Shown here: positions 6,230 to 35,776 of the stretch, piece after piece
Numbering within the stretch: the first letter of the stretch is position 1
How the letters are laid out: every line of letters starts with the position of its first letter
Assembly: GCA_001773955.1 (NCBI GenBank)
Contig: MEYH01000090.1
Span: 22,428 to 60,974, forward strand
From: Candidatus Sediminicultor quintus
Lineage (GTDB): Bacteria > Atribacterota > Phoenicimicrobiia > Phoenicimicrobiales > Phoenicimicrobiaceae
Length of the DNA stretch: 38,547 bases
Direction of reading: 5' to 3'
The notes under the pieces: generated by a model
What the model was told of the DNA's origin: nothing
What the model saw: only the letters and a program-made list of their open reading frames with translations
Databases searched by the model: none
Made by a program: the position numbers and the translations under genes

Positions 6230-6251
6230 ATCCCCTCTGTTGACTTAGATT

Positions 6252-6329
6252 CGTATCGAGTATCTCGTGAATCGTATCTCGTAAAGAGAATAGAAACCGA
6301 GAATCAGAATAAATTCGTATCGAGTATTT
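6252..6329. repeat. Heptad-repeat array upstream of DUF362 gene
   Basis: The spacer between the DUF362 gene and plsY opens with units related to CGTATCG, AGTATCT and CGTAAAG in a 7-base register. The CGTATCG, AGTATTT pair returns at 6316-6329 after one 8-base step. The same word family occurs at 10767-10787, 26083-26103, 32698-32740 and 35547-35566. Confidence 0.65.
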
Positions 6330-6330
6330 A

Positions 6331-6383
6331 GTAGGGGTTCGATTCATCGAACCCGTTTCGGGTCGGATAAATCCGACCCCTAC
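6331..6383. repeat. Double palindrome of the GTAGGGG/CCCCTAC family
   Basis: Two perfect hairpins lie back to back. The first has 9-bp arms GGGTTCGAT and ATCGAACCC at 6335-6354 with a 2-base loop. The second has arms GGGTCGGAT and ATCCGACCC at 6360-6379 with a 2-base loop. The outermost bases GTAGGGG (6331-6337) and CCCCTAC (6377-6383) pair across both. Related palindromes are at 14491-14524, 21252-21289 and 30937-30960. It may act as a transcription terminator for der-plsY, although no T-tract follows; a dispersed repeat is the safer call. Confidence 0.75.
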
Positions 6384-6400
6384 ATTAAAAACAAAACTTT

Positions 6401-6458
6401 AAACTGAAAACTGAAAACGTGTATTTAATACTAACGACTATTCACTATCGACTATTTT
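6401..6458. repeat. Composite heptad element (AAACTGA part plus CTAACGA part)
   Basis: Three A-rich heptads of the AAACTGA type (6401-6421) are followed by a 9-base joint and then four heptads of the CTAACGA/CTATTCA type (6431-6458). The array runs up to the plsY stop codon. A 35-base stretch, 6413-6447, is identical to the reverse complement of 33451-33485, and related copies are at 13825-13905 and 26537-26578. The order of the two word types and the joint between them is conserved among copies. Confidence 0.7.
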
Positions 6459-8422: not shown

Positions 8423-8452
8423 AGTAACAAGTAATAAGTAATGAGTAATGAG
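8423..8452. repeat. Heptad array (AGTAATG type) between rpe and der
   Basis: Four perfect consecutive 7-base units, AGTAACA, then AGTAATA, then AGTAATG twice, fill the short spacer upstream of der. The reverse complement of the same family is at 32808-32835 and in the first 35 bases of the window. Confidence 0.8.
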
Positions 8453-9139: not shown

Positions 9140-9197
9140 AATTATAACACCGCCTATTTATATAAATAATTGTGTATTTTAAAAACTTTGGTAATAA

Positions 9198-10733: not shown

Positions 10734-10745
10734 AAAAACACCTAC

Positions 10746-10879
10746 TTTTTAGTGAATAGTTATTAGTATCGCGTATCGAGTATCGCGTTAAGAAAATCAG
10801 AATTCAGAAATTCTGTTTTTGCTTCTTTATCTTTTCGTTTTTCGCTATACGTTTTTTCTTTACTATATACTCGATACTG
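10746..10879. repeat. Spacer built almost wholly of heptads (comM/yraN)
   Basis: The 134 bases upstream of comM keep one 7-base register with a single 8-base step at 10851-10858. Word families change along the array: TGAATAG, then TATCGCG/TATCGAG, then AATCAGA/ATTCAGA, then TCTTTTC/GTTTTTC, then TATACTC/GATACTG. The segment 10811-10835 matches 26678-26702 at all but one base. No gene or clear promoter is visible. Confidence 0.65.
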
Positions 10880-10881
10880 AC

Positions 10882-13658: not shown

Positions 13659-13700
13659 ATTAGTATATAGTATATCGTATATAGTATATAGTAAAGAGAT
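13659..13700. repeat. Heptad array (TATAGTA type) upstream of rimM
   Basis: Six consecutive heptads: ATTAGTA, then copies of TATAGTA interrupted by one TATCGTA, then AAGAGAT. It starts just 21 bases upstream of the rimM start codon, so the rimM ribosome-binding site abuts the array. Confidence 0.8.
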
Positions 13701-14406: not shown

Positions 14407-14490
14407 TAATTTTGCCTCCATTCTGTTATTTATATTTTTTATTTTTCTGTATCTTTATATATATCTTTTATTTTCTTTTATTCTTTGGCT

Positions 14491-14524
14491 TTTGTAGGGG
14501 CACGATGCATCGTGCCCCTACAAA
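14491..14524. repeat. Perfect 34-bp palindrome, GTAGGGG family
   Basis: The 17 bases TTTGTAGGGGCACGATG are followed directly by their exact reverse complement, giving a loopless palindrome between ffh and rpsP. Its GTAGGGG/CCCCTAC ends match those of 6331-6383, and its GGGCACRAT core matches 30937-30956. As RNA it would form a cruciform-like hairpin between ffh and rpsP that could attenuate or stabilise the transcript. Confidence 0.85.
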
Positions 14525-14551
14525 TTAACCGTTGCATTTTTAATGACTAAT

Positions 14552-29470: not shown

Positions 29471-29533
29471 TATTCTAATTTTGAATTCTATTTTCATCTC
29501 GCAATAGGATATACGATATACGATATACGATTA
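29471..29533. repeat. Phase-locked heptad array between pta and tmcAL
   Basis: Nine consecutive 7-base units from TATTCTA through ATTCTAT, TCGCAAT and AGGATAT to repeated ACGATAT. The 284-bp spacer separates divergent genes. Downstream of the array a TGTATAAT (29561-29568) could be the -10 box of tmcAL, but no good -35 accompanies it. Sequence 29340-29470 is AT-rich with no feature recognised. Confidence 0.7.
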
Positions 29534-31083: not shown

Positions 31084-32076
31084 TTATAATTTTATTAATT
31101 TCATTATTGCATCATCAAAATCATCAACCGGGATGATTCTAATACCATGACTGAATTTAAGAGCTTCTGGGTAATTTTTTTGAGGCACTAAAAATACATC
31201 GGCTTTATGTTTTTTTGCAGATATTATTTTTTGTTTAATTCCATCTACTTCGGTTATTCTCCCATCCATACTTAAATTACCGGTACCGGCGATCAACAAA
31301 CCACTGCTTAGATCGTTTTCGGTTAATTGATTCAACATTTCTAAGGCGATCATTAGACCAGCAGAAGGTCCTTTTATCTTTTCTAAATCTATTTCTATTT
31401 TTAAGGGGAATCTGCATTGAAGATCTTTAGTATCAGCATAGATACCTATCCCTATTCCTTCTGTTTCGTCATCAGTACCAGGAAGTTCAATGAGAGGAAT
31501 TGATGTTGAATAAGTACTATTATCTCTTAAAAAAGTAATTTTTACAATTTGACTTAAATTATAACTTCTGATAATTTCTGAAAATTCTTCCAGAATATAA
31601 ACCGGTTGCTCATCAATTTTTATAATCACATCACCCGGTAATAATTTATTTTTTGCCGGACTATTATCCAATATTCCGTTAATCAATATTCCCCGTCCTG
31701 ATATTTCAGTAGAATATCCTGCTTTCCTTATAGCTACAACCTGGGAAATCATCTGGCTTTCCTGCATTAATTTTTCCATTATATCAATATAATCTTTTTG
31801 TTTCATATTCAATAATATTTCATCATCCTTATTTTTTAAATCGATATTAGGGTCAAAAAACCCATAAATATATAATAATAAATTAGCTTTTATTATAGCG
31901 GTTGAAGTGAGGAGGAATTGGCCTTTAGCGTCTTTTTCGCCGTTTTCCACCGTAATATTTTTACTAAGATTGATGGCCTGCCCGGGAATTATCAGGAAAT
32001 AGGGAGTAGGCATTAGATTAAGTAAGAATAGAACTGTGATTATAATAATTAAAAAATATCTTTTAAAATAGTACAT
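31084..32076 (-). CDS. ylbL: YlbL/SepM family membrane-anchored PDZ-Lon serine protease
   Basis: The 330-residue protein has one N-terminal membrane segment (residues about 8-30), a PDZ domain (about 120-195, with GILINGILDNSPAKNKLLPGDVIIKIDEQPV) and a C-terminal Lon (S16) proteolytic domain with the catalytic Ser238 in GPSAGLMIALEML and Lys281 in ITEVDGIKQKI. The catalytic domain is predicted to lie outside the membrane. SepM processes a competence peptide in streptococci and Bacillus YlbL degrades a cell-division inhibitor; the substrate here is unknown. ATG start, 82 bp after coaD. Confidence 0.92.
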   Translation of the reverse strand: MYYFKRYFLIIIITVLFLLNLMPTPYFLIIPGQAINLSKNITVENGEKDAKGQFLLTSTAIIKANLLLYIYGFFDPNIDLKNKDDEILLNMKQKDYIDIMEKLMQESQMISQVVAIRKAGYSTEISGRGILINGILDNSPAKNKLLPGDVIIKIDEQPVYILEEFSEIIRSYNLSQIVKITFLRDNSTYSTSIPLIELPGTDDETEGIGIGIYADTKDLQCRFPLKIEIDLEKIKGPSAGLMIALEMLNQLTENDLSSGLLIAGTGNLSMDGRITEVDGIKQKIISAKKHKADVFLVPQKNYPEALKFSHGIRIIPVDDFDDAIMKLIKL

Positions 32077-32158: not shown

Positions 32159-32647
32159 TTAAGCTTTTCTATTAAAAAATAATGTCTTTAACTTTTTCTC
32201 TACAATTTCCGGGACCAACTGGGATATGTTACCATTTAAACTCGCTATTTCTTTAACTATACTGGAATTTAAATAAGAATACTTGGAACAAGTAACCAAA
32301 AAAATTGTTTCAATCTCCGGAGCAAGTCCTTTATTCATTAAAGCCAGTTGTGATTCATGTTCAAAATCAGAGATGGCTCTCATCCCCCTGATGATAATAT
32401 TTGCTTTATTTTTTCTCACAAAATCAGTTAATAAACCGGAAAATGACAGCACTTCAACATTCTCCAAATCCTTGATGGCCTCTTTTATCATATCTGCTCT
32501 TTCTTGGGCTGAAAACAAAGTTGATTTTTTAGAATCGACTGCCACTGCTACTATTAATTTATCAACAATTATTATAGTTCTTTTAATGATATTTAAATGG
32601 CCATTAGTAATTGGATCAAAACTACCTGGATAAACGGCAATTTTCAT
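32159..32647 (-). CDS. coaD: Phosphopantetheine adenylyltransferase
   Basis: Penultimate enzyme of coenzyme A synthesis. The 162-residue protein has AVYPGSFDPITNGHLNIIKR at the N-terminus with the nucleotidyl-transfer motif ending His17, the IIRGMRAISDFEHESQLALMN segment, and YSYLNSSIVKEIASLNGN near the end. Typical length. ATG with a GGAGGGA-type site upstream. The rsmD-coaD-ylbL order matches Firmicutes, but a 214-bp repeat spacer separates rsmD and coaD here. Confidence 0.98.
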   Translation of the reverse strand: MKIAVYPGSFDPITNGHLNIIKRTIIIVDKLIVAVAVDSKKSTLFSAQERADMIKEAIKDLENVEVLSFSGLLTDFVRKNKANIIIRGMRAISDFEHESQLALMNKGLAPEIETIFLVTCSKYSYLNSSIVKEIASLNGNISQLVPEIVEKKLKTLFFNRKA

Positions 32648-32662: not shown

Positions 32663-32740
32663 TAGTGGATAGTGAATAGTCGTTAGTATATAGTATCGCG
32701 TATTGCGTATAGTGATTCAGTATCGAGTATCGAGTAAAGA
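32663..32740. repeat. Heptad array with in-register word switching (rsmD/coaD)
   Basis: From 32663 to 32711 seven consecutive units keep a strict 7-base register while the word drifts from TAGTGGA through TAGTCGT, TAGTATA and TAGTATC to GCGTATT and GCGTATA. After one 8-base step come GTATCGA twice and GTAAAGA. It joins in one array word families that elsewhere occur separately. Confidence 0.85.
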
Positions 32741-32807
32741 TTCAGACACTTTTATACTTTTATTTTTAATAAGTACTTATTTTTATAATTTCAGAAATTT
32801 AAGCTTA

Positions 32808-32860
32808 TTACTCATTACATATTACTTGTTACTGTATTTTATACGATATACGATATACGG
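32808..32860. repeat. Heptad arrays (TTACTTG and TATACGA types) downstream of rsmD
   Basis: Four units of the TTACTCA/TTACTTG type (32808-32835) are followed by TATACGA, TATACGA and TATACGG (32840-32860). The array ends one base before the rsmD stop codon. Confidence 0.85.
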
Positions 32861-32861
32861 A

Positions 32862-33419
32862 TTAGATATTAACATAATCGTAAAAAGATAGATAGCACTC
32901 TCCGTATCTTCTTTGATTAAACAGTCTCAAATTATTTATATTTTCCAAAACTTTTTCTTTTTTGTGATGTTGGGCAATCACCAAGCCATTATGTCTCAAT
33001 ATAGGTAATTTCGCTATTTCTAACAAAGAAATGTTTACCAGCCCTCTGCTGTAAGGAGGGTCAAGAAAGATGTAATCCAATAGATAATTTTTTTTAACTA
33101 ATAATTTTAAACCGGACAAAAAATCTATTTTGTAAACTACAACATTTTGGCTGTTTCCAGTTTTTTCTAAATTATCTTTTATAATTTTTACACATTTTGG
33201 TTCTCTCTCGATAAATATTACTTCTCTTGCTCCCCTGCTTAAGGCTTCAATTCCTACTGCACCGGTACCTGCAAATAGATCTAAAAAGCAGGTTTCCTTG
33301 ACAGATGTTCCCAAAATATCAAATAAAGCTTCCCTCACTTTTTCAGAAGTAGGACGAACAGATAAATCCTTGGGGGATTTTAATATATTACCTTTATTCT
33401 TACCAGCAACAATTCTCAT
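32862..33419 (-). CDS. rsmD: 16S rRNA (guanine966-N2)-methyltransferase RsmD
   Basis: Methylates G966 of 16S rRNA. From the ATG used here the protein has 185 residues, beginning MRIVAGKNKGNILKSP, with the invariant RPTSEKVREALFDIL, the SAM-binding LDLFAGTGAVGIEALSRGA and the catalytic DPPY. The open frame runs 20 codons further upstream into the heptad array (to 33479), but that stretch encodes nothing family-like, and an AAAGGT site precedes this ATG. Its downstream partner coaD is 214 bp away. Confidence 0.95.
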   Translation of the reverse strand: MRIVAGKNKGNILKSPKDLSVRPTSEKVREALFDILGTSVKETCFLDLFAGTGAVGIEALSRGAREVIFIEREPKCVKIIKDNLEKTGNSQNVVVYKIDFLSGLKLLVKKNYLLDYIFLDPPYSRGLVNISLLEIAKLPILRHNGLVIAQHHKKEKVLENINNLRLFNQRRYGECYLSFYDYVNI

Positions 33420-33435
33420 AATTTTACCTTTCGAA

Positions 33436-33515
33436 TTAGTCGTTAGTGAATAGTGAATAGTCGTTAGTATTAAATACACGTTTTCGGTTTTTGGTTCTCG
33501 GTTTTCAGTAAATAG
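33436..33515. repeat. Composite heptad element upstream of rsmD
   Basis: Five units of the TTAGTCG/TTAGTGA type (33436-33470), then TAAATAC and ACG as a joint, then four units of the TTTTCGG type (33481-33508) and TAAATAG. The first 31 bases are identical to 35504-35534, and 33451-33485 is the exact reverse complement of 6413-6447. The same layout, inverted, is at 13825-13905. Confidence 0.8.
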
Positions 33516-35489: not shown

Positions 35490-35776
35490 TAATTCACCCC
35501 AAATTAGTCGTTAGTGAATAGTGAATAGTCGTTAATTTATCCTATTGCGTATCGAGTATCGCTTAAAGAAAATTATTTTTTTCAATTATCGACTATCAGT
35601 ATATTAAATTTTCTGTTATCGCTTCGTCATTTCTTTTTGTAATGACATTTCTGTTTTTTTTATTCTTAATTCTGTCTTCTATCTTCTTAACGAGATACGA
35701 ATTTATCTCCTGAATTCTTCTCTCTTTAATTTTCTTTACGATATCCGATATACCATATACGATATACTATAAACTG
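35490..35776. repeat. Repeat-filled spacer between rluB and cmk
   Basis: TTAGTCG/TTAGTGA units at 35504-35531, then GCGTATC/GAGTATC units to 35566, a decayed TCATTGCG-type repeat in reverse orientation (35617-35647), and five heptads of the TACGATA/TCCGATA type at 35737-35771. Nothing gene-like is present. No promoter boxes for cmk were recognised with confidence. Confidence 0.7.

Follow-up and report, generated by a model that had tools for sequence, protein, structure and literature searches.

The spacer between the minus-strand genes coaD and rsmD holds a tandem array of 7-base words. It lies in the window, the whole stretch of 38,547 nucleotides analysed here (C90:22428-60974 of G000, a fragmented 1.95-Mb genome from an uncultured Atribacterota genus), and contains the following features:

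32159..32647, minus strand: coaD, flanking gene (TIGR01510)
32663..32711, plus strand: focal heptad array, seven in-register units from TAGTGGA to GCGTATA (direct reading, lag-7 segments)
32712..32740, plus strand: continuation AGTATCG AGTATCG AGTAAAG, with the register shifted by one base (direct reading)
32767..32854, plus strand: dispersed block of up to 88 bp, an array of TTACT words plus the start of a TACGATA array
32840..32859, plus strand: TATACGA array (reverse complement of TCGTATA words) at the right end of the spacer
32862..33419, minus strand: rsmD, flanking gene (TIGR00095), likely ATG start at 33419, placed by eye

The longest rsmD ORF used an upstream GTG start (to 33479) and translated through a heptad array at 33420-33479; this GTG extension of the RsmD query matched short stretches elsewhere. 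A gene for a SepM-like S16/PDZ protease (31084-32076) adjoins coaD, its score of 154.7 bits being below the cut-off of 200 of the named family.

Direct reading of 32663-32711 gave the word order TAGTGGA, TAGTGAA, TAGTCGT, TAGTATA, TAGTATC, GCGTATT, and GCGTATA, that is, seven different words in seven units instead of near-identical copies of one word. Neighbouring units differed by 1, 3, 3, 1, 3, and 1 bases, as the first-pass annotation had read (one to three changes per step), and the 7-base step was kept throughout. That annotation had extended the unbroken spacing to 32740, which held for the seven units only: after the seventh, the register slips by one base, with GT cores at 32707, 32712, 32720, 32727, and 32734 (steps of 5, 8, 7, and 7). 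Its claim that the array joins word families arrayed separately elsewhere was borne out at 13661-13693, 33437-33471, and 35505-35567. Lag-7 identity reached 0.68 over 32663-32740 vs. 0.296 over the whole window. The top lag-7 segment of the focal spacer scored 13.5, a value equalled at lag 7 in 1 of 2000 dinucleotide simulations and at any lag from 5 to 10 in none of 500, simulations being here and below first-order Markov draws, not exact shuffles. The focal array was missing from the Tandem Repeats Finder output at a minimum score of 40.

Other arrays and array-bearing segments of the window were as follows:

6247..6456, no strand assigned: 210-bp array-bearing insert, the same junction being empty in G006, G008, and G011
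8423..8449, plus strand: AGTAATA/AGTAATG array, with one unit fewer in G006 and one more in G011
10750..10791, plus strand: in-register switching array, limits by eye, with 4 to 6 units or other content in orthologues
13661..13693, plus strand: TAGTATA array (Tandem Repeats Finder and lag segments)
29504..29531, plus strand: ATACGAT array (Tandem Repeats Finder and lag segments)
33437..33471, plus strand: array TAGTCGT TAGTGAA TAGTGAA TAGTCGT TAGTATT (partly by eye)
35505..35567, plus strand: array with the same kind of in-register switch as the focal one (partly by eye)
35739..35775, plus strand: CGATATA array at the right end of the spacer that holds 35505-35567

The words of 35505-35567 were TAGTCGT, TAGTGAA, TAGTGAA, TAGTCGT, TAATTTA, TCCTATT, GCGTATC, GAGTATC, and GCTTAAA.

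The window and 20 further stretches made up a sample of 375,904 bases of G000, about a fifth of the genome, in which ORFs of at least 100 aa were taken as genes and spacers of at least 50 bases were analysed (59.3 kb of spacer). Within this sample, the focal 14-mers TAGTGAATAGTCGT and TAGTCGTTAGTATA showed 52 and 8 further occurrences, and AGTATCGAGTATCG, from the shifted part, showed 10, the others being found 0 or 1 time. The in-phase 21-mer TAGTGAATAGTCGTTAGTATA occurred 6 further times, another 21-mer once, and the remainder never. In the right part of the in-register array, 14-mers from TAGTATATAGTATC onward were found 0 or 1 time elsewhere in the sample, which indicates that local mutation played a part. 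The left part of the focal array is, in consequence of these counts, a common composite, and the right part is largely local. The block at 32767-32854 showed about 80-96% identity over part or all of its length among the copies listed in the genus.

Once N was excluded, which removed a flat background from the whole lag spectrum, the spacers of G000 contained 59 segments at lag 7 and 8 at lag 8 with a segment score of 15. Multiples of these lags also appeared, lags 20 and 29 gave one segment each, and lags 2-6 and 9-13 were empty. Lowering the score to 12 brought lag 7 to 107 segments (0.6 in dinucleotide simulations) and lag 8 to 9, with a sum of 4 for lags 2-6 and of 2 for lags 9-13. Tandem 7-bp units thus exceed chance, and they are mainly intergenic. 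Their density per 10 kb of spacer was 18.0 in G000, 13.5 in G006, and 23.4 in G008, and 3.1 in a single stretch of G005, though this genome belongs to the same genus. Stretches from other genera and families showed 0 to 4.9, based on one stretch of 2 to 20 kb per genome and 1 to 4 genomes per family or genus. Lag-7 array density is concentrated in this genus. As for exact patterns, 13 of the family's 14 genomes carried TAGTGAATAGTGAATAGT, as did 1 of 36 other genomes of the phylum; TACGATATACGATATACGA was found in 9 genomes out of 50, and the nine-member genus accounted for 8 of these. Another genus of the family showed a strong but isolated array of AATCCCA/AATCCTA heptamers (L123 6267, G004).

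The composition of the arrays was then considered word by word. TAGTNNN units in runs of two or more numbered 393, with CGT (115), GAA (111), ATA (38), and ATT (26) as variable triplets. TAGTCGT and TAGTGAA, which lie three changes apart, accounted for 226 of the 393, and the six triplets intermediate between them for a total of 12. In TAGT runs of three or more, equal neighbours were found in 46 of 194 cases vs. 37.7 +/- 4.2 after permutation, a slight excess reached by 42 of 1000 permutations. GTAT runs gave 36 of 135 vs. 35.3 permuted, and the excess was absent from AGAA (2/36), ACGC (0/20), and TTAC (0/11) runs. With so few intermediates between CGT and GAA and a near-random order of triplets, the words appear to be discrete and almost freely mixed, not steps of drift, and the gradual drift proposed from the focal array alone was not supported. 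Adjacent units of arrays found at lag 7 were alike at 5.36 of 7 positions vs. 4.56 permuted (0/500), in the direction expected from drift, but this measure is biased, as arrays were detected by that very similarity, and a test on core words was used instead. In this test, the offset from a TAGT core to the next [CA]GTAT core within 35 bases was determined for 53 distinct segments; it was in register in 25 of them, where 1/7 would be expected, and the second commonest offset was found in 9. Register is therefore kept across word switches above chance, as the first reading had it, although as a tendency. Other pairs at one offset were small sets that could be copies of one block, which are not independent and inflate the counts: TTTTGAA to TTTTCG in 7 of 7, AAAGCG to AATTCA in 6 of 6, TAGT to GAAGTCA-type words in 6 of 12, and three more pairs with 3 to 5 cases each.

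The orientation of the words was analysed in the left and right halves of 150 spacers. TAGTCGT was forward in 38 of 40 cases in left halves and reverse in 53 of 63 in right halves; the corresponding values were 41/43 and 51/55 for TAGTGAA, and 26/31 and 24/27 for TAGTATA. The inner word AAAGCGA followed the rule more weakly (7/9 forward, 12/20 reverse), and the inner word TTTTGAA did not follow it (14/30 forward in left halves, 8/14 reverse in right halves). TAGTCGT and TAGTGAA pointed inward alike in ++ spacers (64/68, 81/92) and in -- spacers (11/11, 11/11). Outer words point inward from both ends of the spacer whatever the gene strands, with TAGT outermost. Going inward, TAGT(CGT/GAA) came before TAGTATA/TCGTATA 25 times and after it 3 times, and the next word pair showed a weaker bias (31 vs. 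17). The first-pass annotation had asked whether transitions are directional; a direction was found along the geometry of the spacer, and not along transcription. TAGT words were often near the gene: those in the near half followed a plus-strand stop codon at a median distance of 4 bases (28 spacers) and preceded a plus-strand start at one of 23.5 bases (30 spacers).

The same word family was found at both spacer ends above chance for three of seven families in G000 (odds ratios 3.8, p 0.002; 8.4, p 2e-5; 8.9, p 0.02), for one of seven in G006 (p 0.02), and for none of seven in G008, so the association was not significant at 0.05 for four, six, and seven families, respectively; two G000 families were never found at both ends. 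Purine content along the spacer was a weak measure of mirrored arms and was set aside. Inspection by eye showed GTAGGGG..CCCCTAC palindromes at some spacer centres (14422-14551, 6230-6457, and others), and ATTGCGAG- and ATTCCC-type palindromes in other centres, which resemble the GTAG-/CGTC-tagged REPs of other phyla (PMC3733652); no GTAG-tagged palindrome was seen by eye in the focal spacer. Spacers with arrays folded better than shuffles (mean z -3.46, n=43), as did spacers without arrays (-2.06, n=51). The focal spacer showed no unusual folding (z -0.67), and an RNA hairpin was rejected as the reason for the focal array. A search of the window against Rfam gave nothing at the gathering score.

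Comparison with the nearest relatives, G006 and G008 (mean identity of 94.9% and 92.4% over aligned sampled DNA; best matches of 94-96% and 92-94%), revealed breaks of colinearity in 53 rows vs. G006, including three duplicates from overlapping loci, and in 24 vs. G008, most but not all of them in spacers. In 44 rows, a few of them duplicates, the spacer had 80 or more of its own bases replaced; here homology reached into the spacer for a median of 21 and 24.5 bases, and the median length of the replaced core was 207.5 bases for G000 and 172.5 for the relative. Spacer cores are replaced between genomes that are about 92-95% identical, and the spacers of this genus turn over far faster than the adjacent genes. 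For the focal spacer, homology with G006 ended at 32691, with other words beyond. The orthologues in G009, G011, and G012 had other contents, although G011 shares the TTACT block with G000, and the coaD-rsmD spacers of G009 and G011 hold 8-bp NTAACYAR arrays.

The insert at 6247-6456 was absent, with the same junction empty, from three of the six relatives recovered (G006, G008, G011), and the site had other contents in G010, G007, and G005; the sites of G009 and G012 were not recovered. It thus shows the presence and absence at orthologous sites that is typical of MITEs, and no target-site duplication was evident by eye at its AT-rich junctions. The switching array of 10734-10881 had 6 units in G000 and G012, 4 in G009, and about 5 in G010 (by eye), with the switch itself kept in these four genomes; G006 lacked the array, and G011, G007, and G005 differed more. 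A spacer without arrays (9140-9197), a single example, measured 57-58 bases in all seven relatives recovered.

Indels were counted across all pairs of sampled stretches from nine genomes, wherever the flanks were clean, with matches in at least 10 of 12 columns. Of the 32 array indels, a set that leans to unit-length events because arrays were called from either allele at lag 7 or 8, 16 were multiples of 7 and 5 of 8, a further 8 were single bases, and 3 had other lengths, these and the following counts not being per base. In other spacer, 78 of 109 indels were of 1 bp and one was a multiple of 7 (arrays vs. other spacer, Fisher p 2e-11), and none of the 43 coding indels was a multiple of 7. 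A count on three genome pairs (13/15 matches each side) gave 7 array events, with lengths of 7 (four times), 8, 21, and 57, and 41 events in other spacer, 30 of them of 1 bp, and also two of 7 and one of 21 that lay by eye in array words. Relatives therefore vary in copy number mostly by whole units, in 21 of the 32 clean array indels, and not by the indels of any length that had been named as evidence against a constraint on unit size, although 8 of the 32 concerned single bases.

Several candidates for a mover or a cause were considered. All genomes of the family but one (13 of 14) carried Y1_Tnp (RAYT-type) genes; the exception, G006, had arrays and no Y1_Tnp match, whereas G013 had 7 Y1_Tnp matches and no TAGTGAATAGTGAATAGT. 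The six Y1_Tnp loci of G000 had 0-2 TAGTGAA/TAGTCGT words each, and no heptad arrays were seen framing any of them, one having a nearby GTAGGGG palindrome. RAYT was rejected as mover of the heptad arms, because its presence does not track the arrays and its own six loci are unframed; a transposase partner of the arrays was not found among Y1_Tnp, the family searched. At L031 13938-14888 and L114 1818-1869, a Y1_Tnp gene was preceded by a GGTGCCAGGCACC palindrome, and a similar hairpin was inserted in G008 relative to G000; the GGTGCCAGGCACC palindrome and Y1_Tnp are a candidate RAYT/REP pair, separate from the heptads. MutL was above its curated cut-off in none of 50 Atribacterota (11 of 14 controls; weaker, short matches in 33 of 50), and MutS1 in none of 14 genomes of the family (weaker matches in 12), the matches of ~800 aa in the MutS search being probably MutS2. 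Canonical mismatch repair thus looks absent by these profile scores (MutL in the phylum, MutS1 in the family). Its loss was rejected as cause of the genus-specific arrays, as the lack of MutL is phylum-wide and the arrays are not; it is a permissive background that does not track them. A phage origin was also rejected, two exact patterns giving 0 matches in viral contigs.

We consider it probable, with moderate confidence, that the focal array is one arm of genus-specific, mosaic, inverted-repeat spacer elements of REP/MITE-like kind, built from a small lexicon of 7-bp words and kept in register by slippage and in-phase exchange. Strand slippage or unequal exchange would add and remove units in steps of 7 bp, and dispersed arrays may align on the heptad during copying or recombination, so that different words are joined in phase; the register would then be a by-product of copying and not a selected length. 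A simpler history, in which a single word expanded locally into the array and point mutation then degraded it, the polymerase preferring 7-nt slippage as proposed by Mrazek 2007 (as cited in PMC4679880 and PMC4692102), seems rather unlikely. Whole-unit indels at clean sites agree with it, as does the rarity of the 14-mers from the right part of the focal array; the values for MutL (0/50) and MutS1 (0/14) above cut-off would be permissive, and heptanucleotides, as the introduction of PMC4679880 states, outnumber the other classes of long simple repeats in most genomes of that survey. However, local growth does not account for the rarity of intermediates between the two dominant words, which differ by three changes, for the almost complete lack of order along TAGT or GTAT runs, for composite blocks common to many loci and species, or for the inward orientation of the words, and the lack of MutL extends over the phylum while the arrays do not.

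Selection on unit length, by a protein or RNA structure that reads words at a 7-bp pitch, as the first-pass annotation had also suggested, is improbable. The register kept across word switches is what it predicts, array spacers on average fold better than shuffles, and heptamer repeats have been proposed as translational regulators in Beggiatoaceae (PMC4679880); nevertheless, the orthologous coaD-rsmD spacers of G009 and G011 carry 8-bp arrays, 8 of 32 clean array indels are of 1 bp, orthologous spacers are empty or otherwise filled, and the focal array itself slips. Such selection is not needed: a 7-bp array that slips will do so by 7 bp, arrays of 8-bp units elsewhere change by 8 bp, and whole spacers are replaced. 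That a dedicated enzyme, a reverse transcriptase or RAYT-like transposase, wrote the heptads by templated or constrained copying is very improbable: the 7/8-bp unit, the discrete words, the mirrored arms, and the wide distribution of Y1_Tnp in the family would suit it, but not the arrays of G006 without Y1_Tnp, the seven Y1_Tnp matches of G013 without TAGTGAATAGTGAATAGT, or the word-poor, unframed Y1_Tnp loci of G000. An assembly artefact can hardly be believed, even though G000 and most relatives are fragmented assemblies and some spacers contain N runs, because the arrays are internal to contigs and are found again, with point differences, at the orthologous sites of other, separate assemblies.

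Beyond the preferred reading of the focal array as an arm of mosaic spacer elements, we propose only tentatively that these may be mobile intergenic elements of a class of their own, nested palindromes with arms from the heptad lexicon, which would spread by insertion into the middles of old palindromes and by heptad-aligned exchange and would have taken over, and still be rewriting, many spacers of one genus. This genus lends itself to the question why heptamers dominate the long simple repeats of bacteria: the sampled fifth of the genome has about a hundred heptad arrays, and the discrete words, close relatives, empty sites, and whole-unit polymorphism would allow slippage, exchange, and selection to be told apart. 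In the part of the open-access literature searched, no description of a nested inward lexicon with in-phase switching was found for heptamer repeats, nor any paper titled on such intergenic repeats of Atribacterota.

Heptanucleotide repeats of Calothrix are known as STRR. The three Calothrix heptanucleotides and the heptamers of Xanthomonas and Nostoc are likewise over-represented 7-bp intergenic arrays with extensive variation in length and sequence between close relatives, as here, but the passages on them in PMC4692102 present G-rich single words and describe no nested lexicon. The TAACTGA heptamers of marine Beggiatoaceae (PMC4679880) are also abundant, tandem, intergenic, and patchy across lineages; in the sections on these repeats, one word is favoured, its one-base relatives are rarely repeated, and most repeats lie within several bases upstream of a start codon, whereas the genus studied here uses many words that point inward from both spacer ends. 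In Geobacter metallireducens (PMC2700814), heptanucleotide multicopy elements are similarly dispersed, with four or five tandem heptads, one class being drawn as a strand looping back, and the consensus MTYCTGA resembles the TCTGACT words found here. Those elements are regarded by their authors as regulatory, have one consensus per class, and in one class also lie inside genes; the passages that describe them make no mention of the in-phase word switching and spacer turnover found here. Class I and Class II heptads of the Nostoc trnL intron P6b (PMC4476775) are likewise degenerate 7-nt motifs, with class shifts at one site and 14-nt insertions, although, in that description, they sit inside an intron stem and are not dispersed over spacers.

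As for palindromic elements, GTAG-/CGTC-tagged REPs are dispersed and intergenic, and the GTAGGGG...CCCCTAC palindromes found here fit the GTAG tag; the REPs are palindromes of 20-40 bp, and heptamers go unmentioned in PMC3733652 (0 occurrences). The BrickBuilt MITE of Porphyromonas gingivalis (PMC4596501) is likewise a tandem repeat inside an intergenic mobile element with inverted ends, but its description gives one 23-bp unit, in 19 copies in the strain named, unlike the lexicon of words found here. Heptamer repeats and REP/MITE-like elements are known kinds, and what is new in this genus is their combination.
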